A stretch of 25,473 bases of DNA, taken from IMG/VR virus record IMGVR_UViG_3300017763_000166, positions 1 to 25,473 of that record; one strand, written 5' to 3'. Shown here piece after piece: positions 4,510 to 14,929 of the stretch. The notes below the pieces were generated by a model. The model worked only from the letters and a program-made list of their open reading frames with translations. It ran no database searches and was not told the DNA's origin. Source of the DNA: a virus. A program made the translations under genes and the position numbers. Each line of letters begins with the position of its first letter. The stretch's first letter is position 1.

Positions 4510-4899
4510 ATGATAAGCAAAGCAAAACAAGAGCACATCATATCATCCATTACAGACGGACACAGCTTGGTAAAGGCTTGTGCAGATGCAAAGGTCAGTC
4601 GTGCTACGTTATATCGCTATATGAGCAAGGATGCTGATTTAGACAGCAATGTAAAGACTGCACAAAGACAGGCTGCTGAGAAAGCACTTGAGGAGCTAGA
4701 GGATATGTATGGTGATGCGTTGCATGGGCGAAAGAACTATGACCCTAATTTATTGAGAGACTATGGGCATCATGTGAGATGGAAGGTGCAGAAGGTATTG
4801 CCAGACAGGTTTGGTGAAGCTAAGAATAGAACAGGCGTTGAGATTAGTGATGGTTCATTGAAGATAGTTTGGGAGACTGGTACAGAGGATGCAAGTTAA
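4510..4899 (+). CDS. terS: Terminase small subunit
   Basis: This 129-residue protein has an N-terminal helix-turn-helix (SLVKACADAKVSRATLYRYM, about residues 18-38) typical of small terminases. A long oligomerisation helix follows (about residues 45-68, VKTAQRQAAEKALEELEDMY). The C-terminal part has VRWKVQKVLPDRFG and a strand ending LKIVWETG. In the family, a ring of this subunit recognises the packaging site in concatemeric DNA and delivers it to the large subunit. The start at 4510 has no good ribosome site, and CACACGCA-type repeats reach right up to it. The gene overlaps the large terminase gene by 11 bases. Family resemblance is to the Sf6/P22-like small terminases with N-terminal HTH. 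Confidence 0.88.
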   Translation: MISKAKQEHIISSITDGHSLVKACADAKVSRATLYRYMSKDADLDSNVKTAQRQAAEKALEELEDMYGDALHGRKNYDPNLLRDYGHHVRWKVQKVLPDRFGEAKNRTGVEISDGSLKIVWETGTEDAS

Positions 4900-6175
4900 G
4901 ATACCCTATAAGCCTAGAGACTTACAGGCTGAGATGCACAATAAGTTGAAAAGATGGAATGTGCTTGTGATGCACAGACGATTTGGTAAGACTGTATTTG
5001 CTGTCAATCATATGATTAAACATGTGCTTACTTGTGAGTTACCAAGACCAAGAGTTGCGTTAGTGGCTCCTACGTTTACACAGGCTAAGAGGATTAGTTG
5101 GGATTATGTTAAGTATTATGCTGGAGTTATACCAGGTGTTACGTTTAACGAGACTGAGTTAAGGGCAGACTTTCCTAATAATGGTAGGATAATGTTATTG
5201 TCAGGTGAGAATCCAGATGCGTTGAGAGGTATATACTTGGATTTGTGTGTCTTTGATGAGTATGGGATGCAGAATCCTAGGGTATGGGGGGAGGTTGTAA
5301 GACCAGCCCTATCCGATAGAGAGGGTAGTGCCATCTTTTTGGGTACACCAGCAGGTCATAATCATTTTTTTGATATATTGCAACAGGCACGAGAGCAGGA
5401 TGAAGAAGGTTCTGACCAATGGTACTGGAAGATTGCCAAGGCTAGTGAGACTAAGCTCGTGAAAGATGCAGAGTTAGAAGCTGCACAGTTGCAGATGACA
5501 CCAGAGCAGTATGAGCAGGAGTATGAGTGTTCATTTACGGCTGCGATTATTGGTGCGTACTATGGTAAGTTACTTGCTGACTTAGATGACAATGGAAAGA
5601 TTACGAGAGTGCCATACGATCCTGCACTGCCAGTACATACGGCTTGGGATTTAGGTATTAATGATTCGACTGCTATTTGGTTTGCACAGGTATATAGAGG
5701 GGGTGCTGTTAATGTTATTGACTATTATGAGAATAGTGGCGTTGGCTTGGACCATTACGCTGAAGTATTGCGAAAGAAAGATTATCACTGGGGAGATCAT
5801 CTTGCTCCACATGATATTGAGGTTCGAGAACTGGGTAGTGGGAAATCGAGATTAGAGACTGCATTTAGTTTGGGTATACGTTTTAGGGTTATACCGAAGA
5901 TGAAAGTTGCTGATGGTATTAATGCTGCGAGGATGATGATACCTAAATGTTACTTTGATAGGGATAAATGTGCTGAGGGTCTTGAGATGTTAAGGCAATA
6001 TAGGCAGGAGTGGGATGAAAGAAAGAAGATATTTAGAGATCAGCCACGCCATGACTTTACGAGTCATAGTGCTGATGCGTTTAGGTATTTAGCTATTGGG
6101 TTGGAGAATCGTACTGTGATGACTAGACCACCACAATCTGTGGCAGTGAATGAGTACAATCCTTTTACGATATGA
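4889..6175 (+). CDS. terL: Terminase large subunit (packaging ATPase and nuclease)
   Basis: This 428-residue protein carries both motor and nuclease domains. Walker A is H29-RRFGKT-35, the adenine and P-loop-proximal APTFTQAKR follows at 60-68, Walker B with the catalytic Glu is VFDE (121-124), and the coupling motif is GTP (152-154). The RNase H-like nuclease begins with the strand HTAWDLG, giving the metal-binding D254, and ends near SHSADAFRYL about residue 400. It pumps DNA into the procapsid and cuts it at the end of packaging. The length is on the short side for the family, which is common in podophages. The start overlaps terS, and its stop overlaps the next start as ATGA, so the three genes are translationally linked. 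Confidence 0.95.
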   Translation: MQVKIPYKPRDLQAEMHNKLKRWNVLVMHRRFGKTVFAVNHMIKHVLTCELPRPRVALVAPTFTQAKRISWDYVKYYAGVIPGVTFNETELRADFPNNGRIMLLSGENPDALRGIYLDLCVFDEYGMQNPRVWGEVVRPALSDREGSAIFLGTPAGHNHFFDILQQAREQDEEGSDQWYWKIAKASETKLVKDAELEAAQLQMTPEQYEQEYECSFTAAIIGAYYGKLLADLDDNGKITRVPYDPALPVHTAWDLGINDSTAIWFAQVYRGGAVNVIDYYENSGVGLDHYAEVLRKKDYHWGDHLAPHDIEVRELGSGKSRLETAFSLGIRFRVIPKMKVADGINAARMMIPKCYFDRDKCAEGLEMLRQYRQEWDERKKIFRDQPRHDFTSHSADAFRYLAIGLENRTVMTRPPQSVAVNEYNPFTI

Positions 6176-6579
6176 TGTATTCTCAGGATTACCATGATGC
6201 TATGGATATGGTTGAGTATAGTGAGCATCATAGAGACTGGGATAAAGATATGTTGCAGAAATATATTGAAAAACCATTAGGGATTAGACAGTATAAGATT
6301 ATTAGGAATGATTATCAGGAGCCATTGATGTTTGCCACATGGGGTTTTCCAAGCGAGAAGCAGGTAGATGAATACGTTGCCACTAAGTATTTTCCTGCTG
6401 ATGGGTATAAGGGTGGTGGCAGTGATGTTTGGCTAGTAGACTTTATTGCAAAAAAAGGTTATACAAGAATAGGTTTTCTTGTTTTAAAGAAAATGTTTAT
6501 GCGTATTGGCTATAAGAAAGCCTTTTGGTTTAGACCAGAGACCAACAAACTAGGTTGGCATATATTGAAAGGAAAGTGA
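6172..6579 (+). CDS. HlyC-type protein lysine acyltransferase
   Basis: This 135-residue protein aligns by eye over its whole length with RTX toxin-activating acyltransferases of the HlyC family. The pattern SEH-H20-RDW corresponds to the HRNW of HlyC around catalytic His23. GIRQY corresponds to RANQY. PLMFATWGFPS corresponds to PVAYCSWANLS. W87-LVD90-FIA corresponds to WFIDWIAP with catalytic Asp92. In the known family the enzyme moves a fatty acyl group from acyl-ACP to the side chain of internal lysines on a protein target. No RTX toxin is present here. The gene overlaps terL (ATGA) and is followed after one base by a lysine-rich virion-type protein, a candidate substrate. The GNAT-like fold is well supported; the acyl group and target are unknown. 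Confidence 0.82.
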   Translation: MMYSQDYHDAMDMVEYSEHHRDWDKDMLQKYIEKPLGIRQYKIIRNDYQEPLMFATWGFPSEKQVDEYVATKYFPADGYKGGGSDVWLVDFIAKKGYTRIGFLVLKKMFMRIGYKKAFWFRPETNKLGWHILKGK

Positions 6580-6580
6580 C

Positions 6581-6970
6581 ATGGGTGGTGCTCCAAAAAA
6601 AATAGCAAGGGCAACAAAAAAAACATTACAAAAAGCTGAAAAGGCTTTAGTCGAACCTTTAGAAAAACCAGTAAAGAAAGCTATAAATGTAGTTGAAAAG
6701 GTTGGTGCAGAAATAGTAGAGCCTTTGGAAAGACCAGTAAAGAAACTTGTAAGAGAAGTCAAGGAGACTGTCACTGGCACTGATAAAAATGATTATAGAA
6801 AGCCTGAACAACCAGCAGAATCACCAGAGATAACACCTGAAGTTGTTGAAGATGAGTCAACAATAACAACTAGGTATGCCACTAGAGGTAAAAGGTCAGG
6901 TCAAGGGGGTACGATCATGGAAGGCTATGGCGTAGTTACACGACCAAAAAGCAAAAAAGCAATAACATAG
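6581..6970 (+). CDS. Lysine-rich protein, T7 gp7.3-like by position and architecture
   Basis: This 129-residue protein begins MGGAPKKIARATKKTLQKAE. It has an N-terminal Lys-rich amphipathic half with a 22-residue tandem repeat (VEPLEKPVKK at 24-33 and VEPLERPVKK at 46-55). A Pro/Glu-rich linker follows, then a Gly-rich tail GKRSGQGGTIMEGYG and a basic C-terminus. From memory, T7 gp7.3, a small virion protein encoded just before the connector, also has an N-terminal MGKKVKKAVKK-type stretch, an acidic linker and a Gly/Ser-rich tail. The tail motif recurs in the next gene. The Lys-rich repeats next to a HlyC-type enzyme make it a plausible acylation target, which is inference. A GGAAAG ribosome site precedes the ATG. 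Confidence 0.7.
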   Translation: MGGAPKKIARATKKTLQKAEKALVEPLEKPVKKAINVVEKVGAEIVEPLERPVKKLVREVKETVTGTDKNDYRKPEQPAESPEITPEVVEDESTITTRYATRGKRSGQGGTIMEGYGVVTRPKSKKAIT

Positions 6971-6979
6971 GAGATATAA

Positions 6980-7201
6980 ATGTCATTCCTTAAACCAAAA
7001 GTTTATGTTCCACCACCACCACCAGTTCCAGAAGAACCTGCACAAGCTGACTATGAAAAAGCTGCTGCTATGGCTGGTGAAGCAGAAACACAGGAAAGAA
7101 AAAAACGTAGAGGGCGTGGCAGTACGATTGTTGCTGGTCAGTTAGGAGAAACATCCACAAGTATGGGTGGCACAGGTGGTACACCAACTTTGTTAGGATA
7201 A
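6980..7201 (+). CDS. Small Pro-rich protein with RRGRGSTI tail motif, likely minor virion or assembly protein
   Basis: This 73-residue protein begins MSFLKPKVYVPPPPPVPEEP. It has a polyproline stretch, a short Ala/Glu helix (ADYEKAAAMAGEAETQE), a basic KKRRGRGSTIVAG motif and a Gly/Thr-rich tail ending in LLG. Proteins with a GRxSTIxxG tail between large terminase and connector are common in podophages, from my memory of these genomes. Their role is not settled, with head-tail assembly or an internal protein the usual suggestions. The tail motif matches that of the upstream protein (GQGGTIMEG). GGAG lies seven bases before the ATG. Confidence 0.72.
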   Translation: MSFLKPKVYVPPPPPVPEEPAQADYEKAAAMAGEAETQERKKRRGRGSTIVAGQLGETSTSMGGTGGTPTLLG

Positions 7202-7205
7202 ACCC

Positions 7206-8798
7206 ATGATGAATGTCAAAGATATAGTTGCTCGTTATCAACACGTTGAAGGTCAGAGAGATAACTGGAATAATCATTACCAGGAGTTAGCTGACTATAT
7301 GTTGCCAAGAAAGGCAGACATAGTTAAGAAAAGAAGTCGTGGTGAAAAGAGAATGGAGCTTATCTTTGATGGTACAGCTTTACAAGCAGTAGATTTATTA
7401 TCATCTAGTTTACATGGTATGCTGACATCTGGTGCAACGCCATGGTTTCATTTGACTATGAAAGATGAAGAATTGGGCAGGGATGAAGAAGTCCAAAGAT
7501 GGTTAGAAGATAGTTCGCAAAGAATGATGCGTGCCTTTACTATGTCTAACTTTGAAACAGAAGTGCATGAGATGTATGTTGACCTAGTTGTATTTGGTAC
7601 TGGGTGTATGTTTGTTGAGATGGATGACAAGACATTACGTTTTAGTACAAGGCATATATCAGAGTTTTATGTAACAGAAGATCAATATGGTATCGTTGAT
7701 ACTGTATTTAGAAAGTATGAGTTACCTGCAAGACAAGCTGTGCAAAGATTTGGCATTGATAATGTAGGTGCATTTATTGCAAGAACATTTGAGAAGAAGC
7801 CTGATGAGAATGTAGAGATACTTCATGTTGTGATGCCTAGAAAAGAAAGAGATCCAACGAAACGAGATAATAAGAATATGCCATTTGCATCTATGTATAT
7901 TTGCATGGAAACAAAAATGATATTGGCAGAGAGTGGTTTTCAGGAACTACCTTACGTTGTACCACGCTTCTTAAAGGCAACAGGAGAAGTGATGGGTAGA
8001 TCTCCAGCTATGGTTGCATTGCCAGATGTGAAGATGATTAACTTGATGTCTAAAACAATCATACAAGCAGCACAAAAAATGATAGATCCTCCACTATTAG
8101 TGCCTGATGATGGGTTCTTGCTCCCCATTCGAACCCAGCCTGGAGGTCTAAACTTTTACAGATCAGGCTCAAGAGATACAATAACACCACTACAAACTGG
8201 TGCTAATATACCTATTGGATTGAACATGGAAGAACAACGAAGGATGGCAATTCGTTCTGCTTTCTTCGTTGACCAATTACTAAGTGGTAGTACGCCTAAT
8301 ATGACAGCGACAGAAGTTATACAAAGACAAGAAGAAAGAATGAGAGTTATAGGTCCTGTGCTTGGTAGATTGATGAACGAAATGCTAAGACCTTTAATTG
8401 ATAGGGCGTTTGCTTTGATGTTGCGTGCAGATATGCTTGCCGTACCACCAGAGGTTTTACAAGGATTGGATATTGATATTGAGTATGTATCACCACTTGC
8501 GAGGGCACAAAAGTCTAGCTCTGTTAATGGTGTGATGAGAGCCTTAGAAATACTAATGCCATTGTCACAACAGCTACCAGTTGGAGATCACATTGACCCT
8601 GATGGACTGGTTAACTATCTAACTGATGCACTGGGTGTTCCAAAGAAAGTCTTGAAGCCACAGTCAGCCATTGATGAAGAAAGAGAACAGCGTGCAATGA
8701 TGCAGCAAGAGCAGATGGAAAGACAAATGGAGCAAGAGGATGTAGCTACAGTTGGTCAGGCAGCACAAGCAGTAAGAATGGTTGGTGCAAATGAATGA
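7206..8798 (+). CDS. Head-tail connector (portal) protein, T7 gp8-like
   Basis: At 530 residues, close to the 536 of T7 gp8, it has the family N-terminus: HVEGQRDNWNNHYQELADYM, then LPRK, then ELIFDGTALQAVDLLSSSLH and TPWFHL. The core contains the long crown and stem helices and a LPVGDHID segment. The C-terminal tail is Gln/Glu/Met-rich (REQRAMMQQEQMERQMEQED) as in other podophage connectors. Twelve copies form the DNA-entry ring of the capsid, bind the terminase during packaging and later the tail. The start is a double ATG with AGGA eight bases before. The last 8 bases overlap the following small gene. Confidence 0.93.
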   Translation: MMNVKDIVARYQHVEGQRDNWNNHYQELADYMLPRKADIVKKRSRGEKRMELIFDGTALQAVDLLSSSLHGMLTSGATPWFHLTMKDEELGRDEEVQRWLEDSSQRMMRAFTMSNFETEVHEMYVDLVVFGTGCMFVEMDDKTLRFSTRHISEFYVTEDQYGIVDTVFRKYELPARQAVQRFGIDNVGAFIARTFEKKPDENVEILHVVMPRKERDPTKRDNKNMPFASMYICMETKMILAESGFQELPYVVPRFLKATGEVMGRSPAMVALPDVKMINLMSKTIIQAAQKMIDPPLLVPDDGFLLPIRTQPGGLNFYRSGSRDTITPLQTGANIPIGLNMEEQRRMAIRSAFFVDQLLSGSTPNMTATEVIQRQEERMRVIGPVLGRLMNEMLRPLIDRAFALMLRADMLAVPPEVLQGLDIDIEYVSPLARAQKSSSVNGVMRALEILMPLSQQLPVGDHIDPDGLVNYLTDALGVPKKVLKPQSAIDEEREQRAMMQQEQMERQMEQEDVATVGQAAQAVRMVGANE

Positions 8799-12105: not shown

Positions 12106-14514
12106 ATGGCTAGAGTATCGTCTATTATCACCAATTTCAGAGCAGGTGAGATATCTCCACGATTAGAAGGTAGGATTGATTTACAGAAATATAATGAAGC
12201 TGTAAAAGATTTAAATAATATGATTGTATTTCCACAGGGAGGTACAACACGCAGACCTGGAACATTTTACGCAGGAACCACAAAAGATGGTGGTCAGGTA
12301 AGATTAATTAACTTTGAGTTTAGCGATACACAAGCCTATGTATTAGAGTTTGGTAATAACTACATACGAGTATTTAAAGATGGTGGCTTAGTTACAGAAG
12401 CTACTACAGCAATATCTGCAATAACAAAAGCAAACCCAGCAGTGGTGACATCTAATTCACATGGTTTGAATAATGGTGACAGAGTGTTTATTACTGGTGT
12501 TGTTGGTATGACAGAGGTAAACAACAGGGAGTTTACAGTTGCAGGAAAAACAACTAATACATTTCAGTTAAGTGGTGTTAATAGCACAGGGTTTACAACT
12601 TACGGAAGTGCAGGAACAGTTGGTAAAATAGTAGAGATAACAAGCACTTACACAACAAGCCAGTTATCCAGCATTAACTTTGCACAATCAGCAGATGTTT
12701 TGTTTCTTGCACATAATAGTCATCAACCTGCAAAGTTAACAAGAACAAGTCATACATCATGGACATTGACAGATATTGATTTTACTGATGGTCCTTACCT
12801 TGATGAAAACATAACGACAACTACTTTGTATGCTTCGGCAGACAATGGTTCTGTAACGATTACAGCAAGTGCTGATTTATTTGCAAGCACAGATGTTGGT
12901 AGATTAATAAGGTTTCGTGAAGTATTAGAGATAACCTATGATGAATGGGCAGCTAGTACAAGTTATGCCAATGATGTTTTTGTTAGGTTTAATGGTCATG
13001 TCTACAAACATACAACTGGGTCTACGCAGACATCAGGTAACACGCCACCAGTACACACATCAGGTACAGAAACATATGGCAGTTTGAATTGGGAATACAG
13101 GCATGATGATACAGGGTATGTAAAGGTTACTGCATTTACTAATGCAACAACAGTTACAGCATCAGTTCAAACAGATGATGGTGGTATATCGGTTTTACCA
13201 GCACAAGTTGTTGGTTCAAGTAATGCGACTACAAAATGGTCACTAGGTAGTTTTAGTGCGACTACTGGGTTCCCAAGAGCAATAGGTTTCTATGAAGAAC
13301 GATTATACTTTGCTGGAACTACAAGTCAGCCACAGACTATCTTTGGTAGTGTTTCTGCTGATTTTGAAAACCACACACCTGGAACAGAAGATGATGCAGC
13401 CATAAATGTAACGATAGCATCAGACCAAGTAAACGTGATAAAGCACTTATTACCAGCTAGATTCTTGCAATTATTAACTACAAGTGCTGAGTTTACACTG
13501 TCAGGTGGTGCAGGATCAGAGCCAGTTACACCTACAAATGTAAATGTTCTTAGAGAAACTACGTTTGGCACAGGTACAGTAAAGCCATTGAGAGCAGGTA
13601 ACAGTACAATACTAATACAAAAGGGTGCAGAAAAAGTAAAAGAAATAACTTTTGATTTAGATACAGATGGATTGTTAGGTGTTGATTTAACTGTATTGGC
13701 AGATCATTTGGCTAGAGGTGGCTTAACTGACATGGTTTGGCAACAAGAGCCTGAGTTATTATTATGGTTTGTTCACAGTGATGGCAGACTTATTGGATTA
13801 ACTTATGACAGAGCTAACGCTACAGTGGGTTGGCATGAGCACAGTTTAGGTGGCAGTGGCATAGTAGAAAGTATTACAGCTATACCTAGTGGTGCAGAAG
13901 ATCAGGTTTATCTAAGTGTAAAAAGAACAATTAACAGTGCGACTGTAAGACATATAGTTTTTCTCAAGTCATTATATTTCAATGATGATGTAGAAGATGC
14001 TTTCTTTGTAGATAGTGGATTAACATACAGTGGAAGTGCCACAACGTCTATTACAGGCTTAAATCATCTTGAGGGTGTGACAGTGACCATTTTAGCTGAT
14101 GGGTCTGCACACGCAGATAAAACAGTCAGTGGTGGTGCAGTCACATTAGATAGAAGTGCGTCAAAGGTTCACATTGGTTATGGGTATACATCATCACTAG
14201 AAACCTTGCGTATGGAAGCAGGTGCAGAAGATGGTATTTCACAAGGCAAGATAAAGAGAATACATGGTGTTACGGCTAGGTTCTTTCAGACAGTTGGTGC
14301 AGAGTTAGGTCCTGATACAAGTAATCTTGACAGATTGCCATTTAGAGATAGTAGTATGAATATGGATGAAGCTGTACCATTGTTTACTGGGGATAAAGAA
14401 ATATCTTTCCCATCAGGGTATGATAATGATGCAAAGATTGTTATAAGGCAGACACAGCCATTGCCTATGACAATATTAGCTATTATGAGAAGGTCTAATA
14501 CATTTGATGCTTAG
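12106..14514 (+). CDS. Tail tubular protein B (nozzle), T7 gp12-like, with extra FCCH- and carbohydrate-binding-like domains
   Basis: At 802 residues (T7 gp12 has 794), it begins with the family signature ITNFRAGEISPRLEGRIDLQ, then DLNNMIVFPQGGTTRRPGT. Residues about 102-170 look like an FCCH domain (AVVTSNSHGLNNGDRVFITG, then NREFTVAGK and TFQLSG). Residues about 278-330 resemble a small carbohydrate-binding module (EWAASTSYANDVFVRFNGHV, then TPPVHTSGT and LNWEY). The C-terminal beta-propeller-like part carries AIGFYEERLYFAGT and SQPQTIFGS, typical of the nozzle. Six copies close the tail and hold the DNA. The extra modules suggest surface-exposed loops that may touch the host envelope. Its stop overlaps the acetyltransferase start. 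Confidence 0.9.
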   Translation: MARVSSIITNFRAGEISPRLEGRIDLQKYNEAVKDLNNMIVFPQGGTTRRPGTFYAGTTKDGGQVRLINFEFSDTQAYVLEFGNNYIRVFKDGGLVTEATTAISAITKANPAVVTSNSHGLNNGDRVFITGVVGMTEVNNREFTVAGKTTNTFQLSGVNSTGFTTYGSAGTVGKIVEITSTYTTSQLSSINFAQSADVLFLAHNSHQPAKLTRTSHTSWTLTDIDFTDGPYLDENITTTTLYASADNGSVTITASADLFASTDVGRLIRFREVLEITYDEWAASTSYANDVFVRFNGHVYKHTTGSTQTSGNTPPVHTSGTETYGSLNWEYRHDDTGYVKVTAFTNATTVTASVQTDDGGISVLPAQVVGSSNATTKWSLGSFSATTGFPRAIGFYEERLYFAGTTSQPQTIFGSVSADFENHTPGTEDDAAINVTIASDQVNVIKHLLPARFLQLLTTSAEFTLSGGAGSEPVTPTNVNVLRETTFGTGTVKPLRAGNSTILIQKGAEKVKEITFDLDTDGLLGVDLTVLADHLARGGLTDMVWQQEPELLLWFVHSDGRLIGLTYDRANATVGWHEHSLGGSGIVESITAIPSGAEDQVYLSVKRTINSATVRHIVFLKSLYFNDDVEDAFFVDSGLTYSGSATTSITGLNHLEGVTVTILADGSAHADKTVSGGAVTLDRSASKVHIGYGYTSSLETLRMEAGAEDGISQGKIKRIHGVTARFFQTVGAELGPDTSNLDRLPFRDSSMNMDEAVPLFTGDKEISFPSGYDNDAKIVIRQTQPLPMTILAIMRRSNTFDA

Positions 14515-14929
14515 TATTAAAAGATTTGAAAAAGAAGATTTGGAAATGATAGAAACTAATTTTCATTTTCCAGAAAGCTCAAAAGCAGCTATGATGAAAG
14601 AAAGTTGCATAAGTGCATACACAGCATTGCTAGAAAGTAAGGTATTTATGATTGGTGGTGTATATGGATTGTGGAAAGATGTAGGCGAAGCATGGTTTAT
14701 TATGTCAAGTATTGCCTATAACAAACCTTTTGCAGCAGCTAAATACTCCAGTATATTGTTAGATCATGTTCAAGATAACGCTAAGTTAAAACGCATACAA
14801 GCAAGTGTTCATACTAAAGATAAGCAAGCTATAAGATATGTAGAGTGGCTAGGGTTTGAAAATGAAGGTTTAATGAAGAAGTATGGTCCTGATGGTTCGG
14901 ACTATTATCGTTTTGCAAGGGTAGTATAA
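14507..14929 (+). CDS. GNAT-fold protein in the T7 gene 13 position
   Basis: This 140-residue protein is recognisable as a GNAT acyltransferase-like fold. It has MLSIKRFEKEDLEMIETNF, a strand with VFMIGGVYGLW, the second strand AWFIMSSIAY, and the C-terminal block LKRIQASVHTKDKQAIRYVE followed by WLGFENEGLMKKYG. The usual acetyl-CoA binding QxxGxG/A loop is not evident (KPFAAAKYSS stands there), so catalysis is uncertain. Between tail tube B and the gp14-like gene, T7 has gp13, an internal-virion assembly protein that belongs to a GNAT-like family. The ATG at 14507 lies inside the tail B gene; a TTG one codon upstream is not needed. Its stop overlaps the next start (TAATG). Confidence 0.8.
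   Translation: MLSIKRFEKEDLEMIETNFHFPESSKAAMMKESCISAYTALLESKVFMIGGVYGLWKDVGEAWFIMSSIAYNKPFAAAKYSSILLDHVQDNAKLKRIQASVHTKDKQAIRYVEWLGFENEGLMKKYGPDGSDYYRFARVV

Follow-up and report, generated by a model that had tools for sequence, protein, structure and literature searches.

A putative HlyC-type acyltransferase beside a lysine-rich, gp7.3-like protein in a T7-like phage: the neighbor's N-terminal end as a candidate site of modification

What might a toxin-activating acyltransferase modify in a phage structural operon? The question is raised by a stretch of 25,473 bases from a virus record, referred to here as the window, which belongs to a T7-like phage and in which the genes follow the order terS, terL, an HlyC-like gene, a lysine-rich gene, the gene for a phrog_831 protein and the portal gene (Table 1). 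Lysine acylation is the known chemistry of the HlyC family, and a sequence-only reading of this DNA had proposed that lysines within two repeats of the lysine-rich protein are the acyl acceptors. The enzyme family, the kind of neighbor and the plausibility of the two proteins as an enzyme-substrate pair were supported by the analyses described below, but the choice of acyl sites was contradicted by comparative evidence. The explanation favored here, to which a probability of roughly 40% is attached, is that the lysine-rich protein is a gp7.3-like minor virion or ejection protein whose N-terminal MG[GSA] end, and not the repeat lysines, would be modified by the HlyC-type enzyme.

Table 1. Coordinates of features in and around the HlyC-like and lysine-rich genes of the window.
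Feature	Position	Strand	Basis or remark
Terminase large subunit	4889..6175	+	PF03237, phrog_2; last codon overlaps HlyC start
HlyC / toxin-activating acyltransferase family protein, 135 aa	6172..6579	+	PF02794, model, fold match
Catalytic-type His20 codon; Asp90 codon	6229-6231; 6439-6441	+	HMMER alignment with ApxC
Lys-rich gp7.3-like protein, 129 aa, ATG start	6581..6970	+	ORF, repeats, composition
N-terminal MGG, feature accompanying HlyC	6581..6589	+	Gly2 and G/A/S3 counts in relatives
22-residue repeat 1, QKAEKALVEPLEKPVKKAINVV	6629..6694	+	Internal self-match
22-residue repeat 2, EKVGAEIVEPLERPVKKLVREV	6695..6760	+	Internal self-match
Acidic, Pro-rich linker, ESPEITPEVVEDE	6776..6859	+	TPE..E-D-E constant among relatives
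Constant C-terminal motif, TITTRYATRGKRSGQGGTIMEGYGV	6860..6934	+	Common to N-module types
phrog_831 small protein, 73 aa, in gap between Lys gene and portal	6980..7201	+	phrog_831 E 3e-9; position conserved
Portal (head-tail connector)	7206..8798	+	Nearest cultured relatives HTVC010P-type pelagiphages, 57%

The assignment of 6172-6579 to the HlyC family, which the sequence-only reading had made, is firm. The ORF matched Pfam PF02794 with 31.7 bits against a cut-off of 25 (E 1.6e-7). The AlphaFold (AF2) model of the protein was confident (pLDDT 86.7), and its top PDB match in Foldseek was the toxin-activating acyltransferase ApxC (4whn; E 3.8e-7, TM 0.71/0.58). Residues His20 and Asp90 lined up with their ApxC counterparts in the HMMER alignment and were invariant in 14 aligned homologues of the window type. 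The protein is shorter than ApxC chains, with 135 compared to about 170 residues. The enzyme resembles characterized members of the family, such as ApxC and CdiC, in the Pfam match, the 4whn fold and the positions of the His and Asp residues, as well as in the location of its gene next to that of a putatively membrane-directed protein. The HlyC homologue CdiC acylates CdiA, the product of the adjacent gene (PMC8510554). The window protein differs from these enzymes in being encoded in a phage structural operon without an RTX toxin, and in having a suggested target that is N-terminal instead of a lysine: the characterized HlyC-family enzymes acylate internal lysines and not N-termini (PMC8510554).

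The lysine-rich ORF begins one base past the stop codon of the HlyC-like ORF, and lysine accounts for 19 of the 129 residues of its product (14.7%). The two 22-residue repeats that had been described were recovered as the best internal match, abutting at residues 17-38 and 39-60 with 11/22 identities, a level that was matched by 2 of 1000 composition-preserving shuffles of the N-module. The copies are identical at 44/66 positions at the DNA level, which indicates an older repeat that has been kept at the protein level. The amphipathic character of the protein also was borne out, with a mean helical hydrophobic moment of 0.605 compared to 0.235 in shuffled sequences, none of which (0/1000) was as high. 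Searches of Pfam, PHROG and phage records with the protein gave no significant match, and the weak matches that the repeats gave to tape-measure proteins were attributed to composition. The structural model was of low confidence (pLDDT 57) and comprised one helix at residues 4-65.

The order terL-HlyC-Lys-orf73-portal was found again in HlyC-bearing relatives with contigs that are long enough, and in some HlyC-bearing relatives a few additional genes separate HlyC from the lysine-rich gene. As the order recurs and the repeat number differs widely among relatives, the repeat is an evolving feature and not a fluke. The relatives' proteins are modular, and consist of a changeable N-module and a C-terminal part that is constant (TPE, followed by E-DE and TTRYATRGKRSGQxGTIMEGYGV). 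Type A N-modules range from one EKPxKK to many VEPLE[KR]PVKK copies, whereas the type B module (MGGGPSGG...SGVQDP...ELRRGGEM) is unrelated to type A. In type C proteins (L102-L109) the layout is retained and lysines are almost absent. Type B and type A genes stand in tandem between HlyC and the phrog_831 gene in L006, L085/L086 and L092; the N-modules are swapped in these four loci and the C-terminal motif is constant. In L124-L128, which are without HlyC, the N-module is much longer and an extra ORF of ~300 aa precedes the phrog_831 gene.

The position and composition of the lysine-rich protein had been likened to those of T7 gp7.3 (PF11653 VirionAssem_T7, phrog_1320), a comparison that holds for the plan of the protein but not for its sequence. 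The two proteins share an MG start, a gene upstream of the portal, and a three-part organization that consists of a Lys-rich N-terminal segment with [KR]PV.K, an acidic, proline-containing linker and a basic, Gly-rich constant C-terminus. However, the window protein matched neither PF11653 nor phrog_1320 in Pfam and PHROG searches, and homology to gp7.3 was not supported by profile comparison (hhalign probability of only 13%). Moreover, the gene upstream of gp7.3 in T7 is gp7, which is not a recognizable HlyC, whereas HlyC occupies this position in the window. In T7, gp7.3 is held by its C-terminus at the nozzle/adaptor junction, and density that surrounds the DNA in the tail channel has been attributed to its N-terminus (PMC11784390). 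In T7-like phages (L207:331-732, which is T7 gene 7; L211; L299) gp7 ('host range') is located directly before a Lys-rich gp7.3. A gp7-family protein from phage P694 was among the GNAT-fold matches that Foldseek returned with the window HlyC model (TM 0.56/0.58). Profile comparison did not support T7 gp7 as an HlyC homologue (probability under 6%). The gp7 and gp7.3 proteins are a possible functional parallel to HlyC and the lysine-rich protein, although sequence profiles show no homology.

Acylation of the lysines in the VEPLE[KR]PVKK repeats by HlyC is improbable, because repeats and enzyme are decoupled in both directions. The recurrence of HlyC beside a gp7.3-like gene agrees with the proposed pairing, but repeats are kept without HlyC and HlyC is kept without repeats. 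Thus, the HlyC-less sisters L110-L123 retain VEPLERPVKK repeats, with terL abutting the lysine-rich gene; HlyC was absent from 13/13 HlyC-less sister records, four of which are 31.7-33.1 kb, bearing in mind that records may be incomplete. These HlyC-less relatives form their own well-supported group in the portal tree. Within the HlyC-bearing clade of the same tree, type B arose at least twice (L070 was not placed). The HlyC gene is intact in these lineages and the type B gene is followed directly by the phrog_831 gene; the type A repeat was not found elsewhere in the type B contigs searched, which may be incomplete records. Furthermore, no lysine was found that type A and type B N-modules share. 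A target module that always accompanies the enzyme therefore was not seen in the type B lineages, and target lysines that are lost or free without the enzyme, as reported for Lys1467 of CdiA, were not seen in L110-L123, which keep PVKK. Co-loss of repeats and HlyC was rejected on the basis of this two-way decoupling.

Certain observations nevertheless favor the repeat lysines. Their acylation would correspond to the established chemistry of the family, and the PxKK lysines in HlyC-bearing phages are K at 216/218 positions, whereas the basic residue immediately before the proline is K in 47 and R in 62 instances. The lysines are not free to vary, as had been anticipated, but are nearly as conserved when HlyC is lacking: HlyC-less relatives keep the first lysine in 28/28 and the second in 23/28 cases. 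The second position is slightly looser than in HlyC-bearing phages (23/28 vs. 107/109; Fisher p 0.004, with rows that are not independent). In the HlyC-less clade L102-L109, EKPGKK is replaced by EKPVQQ, with repeats nearly devoid of lysine in L102-L104 and L106-L109, and the lysine contents of TerL and portal are normal. This clade was rejected as a clean case of co-loss (KK to QQ), since HlyC-less sisters keep KK. The retention of lysines almost as well without HlyC indicates another role, such as contact with DNA or membrane, and such a role requires no acylation. Similar KPV[KE]KAVK stretches in gp7.3 of T7-like phages, which have no recognizable HlyC, argue in the same direction.

The N-terminus covaries with HlyC. 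In the window family, HlyC-bearing phages have Gly2 in 63/63 proteins and G, A or S at position 3 in 63/63, compared to Gly2 in 10/17 HlyC-less relatives. In the J-like tail-protein family of siphoviruses, for which the choice of start codons favored ATGs with a Gly codon next to them close to the end of HlyC, MG[GSA] was present in 78/78 proteins with HlyC and 0/35 without, and the tail-protein tree contains only 2-3 switches by HlyC gain or loss, all of which are concordant but too few for significance. The HlyC-less tail proteins start with MGF, MGL, MGI, MGW or MYN, and the 60 HlyC-less loci listed agree. In a close pair, L373 with HlyC (MGSIVKAVTKVTGFF) and L318 without HlyC (MGWGSIVKAVTKITGFF), the N-terminal lysines are unchanged; similarly, in the segments MGSIVKAVTKVTGFFKNMNPLV of L373 and MGWGSIVKAVTKITGFFKDMNPLV of L318 the first lysines are the same and the N-terminus is changed. 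HlyC and the next gene overlap by about 10 nt in half of the siphovirus loci. Overlap was rejected as the cause of MG[GSA], as the +3/+4 nt class without overlap still showed the motif in 39/39 cases. HlyC may travel together with the 5′ end of its neighbor as one cassette. An MGG start was also seen in the absence of HlyC, in 10/17 HlyC-less sisters and in HTVC010P gp03/gp04, and T7 gp7.3 starts with MG without HlyC. Type B proteins keep MGGG and have no lysine before residue 16, and their HlyC is intact. Together with the MG[GSA] covariation, this suggests that the N-terminal end fits a site read by HlyC better than the repeat lysines do.

In a survey of other phages, HlyC was again linked to virion-type proteins whose N-terminus is basic and amphipathic. 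HlyC is present in cultured SAR11 phages of other types, namely HTVC026P, 111P, 112P (inside the tail module), HTVC115P, and HTVC103P/104P (early region). Directly behind HlyC, 84/87 siphovirus and HTVC115P-type loci encode a protein that starts with MG[GSA], the genes overlapping or lying within 4 nt; the exceptions are L250 (MGR), L286 (MGK) and L294 (MSN). These neighbors usually possess a basic amphipathic segment and, with the window's family included, HlyC neighbors constitute three unrelated families. Among a sample of 99 CDS, 11 start with MG, and the combination of MG and a basic amphipathic N-terminus was confined to three (3/99), all of which are HlyC neighbors. Within the examined surroundings of HlyC in HTVC026P, 112P, 115P and the window, no gene other than the one after HlyC starts with MG. 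HlyC is elsewhere in HTVC103P/104P, yet an MGSVFKR homologue of the HTVC115P neighbor is present. The Pelagibacter phages HTVC026P, 111P, 112P and 115P resemble the window in that an MG[GSA] protein is encoded immediately after HlyC, which is annotated in these phages as toxin-activating lysine-acyltransferase or RTX toxin acyltransferase family. They differ in the absence of the catalytic His and in the neighbor, which is either a J-like tail protein or a protein of 417 aa, neither of them related to the neighbor in the window. HTVC010P-type pelagiphages have the closest portal (57%) and a similar gene order, but are without HlyC, and short MGS/MGG proteins replace the Lys-repeat protein.

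With the architecture of the protein and T7 as guides, we infer the virion location, ejection, acylation and acyl acceptor of the lysine-rich protein as follows. The constant C-terminal motif probably would anchor the protein at the portal/tail junction, with the basic amphipathic repeats of the N-terminal part placed in the tail channel and touching DNA. The protein would leave first during infection, whereupon the repeats would touch the host envelope. The HlyC-type enzyme most likely would modify the N-terminal end of its neighbor by recognizing the MG[GSA] start, and an acyl chain at this end would act as a membrane anchor for the ejected protein. A more specific proposal is that phage HlyCs are N-terminal glycine acyltransferases that, after Met removal, fatty-acylate the MG[GSA] end of the adjacent virion protein, which would be the gp7.3-like protein in the window and the J-like tail protein in siphoviruses, so that a protein acting early in infection could be anchored in the host envelope by its lipid. 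This version is doubtful, and N-terminal Gly acylation would be new for the HlyC family.

Alternatively, HlyC may act on another virion protein or on a host protein, with the terL-portal and hub-tail-fiber intervals serving as insertion spots for accessory genes. The intervals of relatives hold GNAT (Baldr, DSL-LC06) or DUF6950 (CRP-821) genes, the interval in HTVC202P holds nothing, HTVC010P has no HlyC, and HlyC is in the early region of HTVC103P/104P. However, neither the MG[GSA] rule nor the placement of HlyC before such a protein in three unrelated groups is explained by a different target, which is considered rather unlikely. It is very unlikely that phage HlyC is devoid of fatty-acyl activity and helps its neighbor to assemble, either as a chaperone with a GNAT fold or as a weak acetyltransferase. 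The short chain is consistent with such a function, as are the loss of the catalytic His from siphovirus and HTVC115P-type HlyCs and the Glu that replaces Asp in HTVC112P and L373 (neither of which is in alignment A3); HlyCs with these changes may be inactive in some cases. Nevertheless, His and Asp are kept in all of the aligned window-type proteins (14/14), and Asp is kept in 25/25 sequences of alignment A3. CdiC no longer modifies its target once Asp is lost, whereas residual activity remains in CdiC and ApxC after loss of His (PMC8510554). An essential Asp and a partly dispensable His fit the retention of Asp in alignment A3 and the loss of His among phage HlyCs. The 'W' counts in the catalytic-residue tally were an artefact of an earlier QY in the sequence, and the alignments were used instead.

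Modification of the neighbor's N-terminal end, as favored here, bears on how phage hlyC genes are viewed. The hlyC genes of marine phages have been listed among bacterial virulence genes (PMC7003362). Gene order and N-terminal covariation suggest instead that HlyC serves the phage's own virion, a role that would extend from HTVC026P-type and HTVC115P-type phages to relatives of the HTVC010P type. In the open-access literature searched, with subscription journals mostly outside, no paper was found that describes an action of HlyC on phage virion proteins, and we know of no earlier case of a phage that fatty-acylates its own infection apparatus. Lipidation of the neighbor would provide such a case, and would add to the HlyC family a target that is neither a toxin nor CdiA. 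If the acyl group is placed on the N-terminal glycine, bacterial viruses would possess a counterpart of N-myristoylation that is based on the fold of toxin-activating acyltransferases. The idea is directly testable with the predicted motif and with the natural pair of phages with and without HlyC.

A second acetyltransferase-like protein is encoded in the window genome at 14504-14929, a gp13-like internal virion protein that resembles GNAT (phrog_308, phrog_4177). In Baldr and DSL-LC06 (L192:3181-3618; L217:887-1372) a different acetyltransferase-type protein occupies the interval of HlyC. The lysine-rich protein (6860-6934) and the phrog_831 ORF (7085-7140) have in common a short C-terminal pattern, RxGxGxTIxxG, which is present too in HTVC010P gp03/gp04, with weak profile scores, and which possibly is a common portal/tail docking motif.
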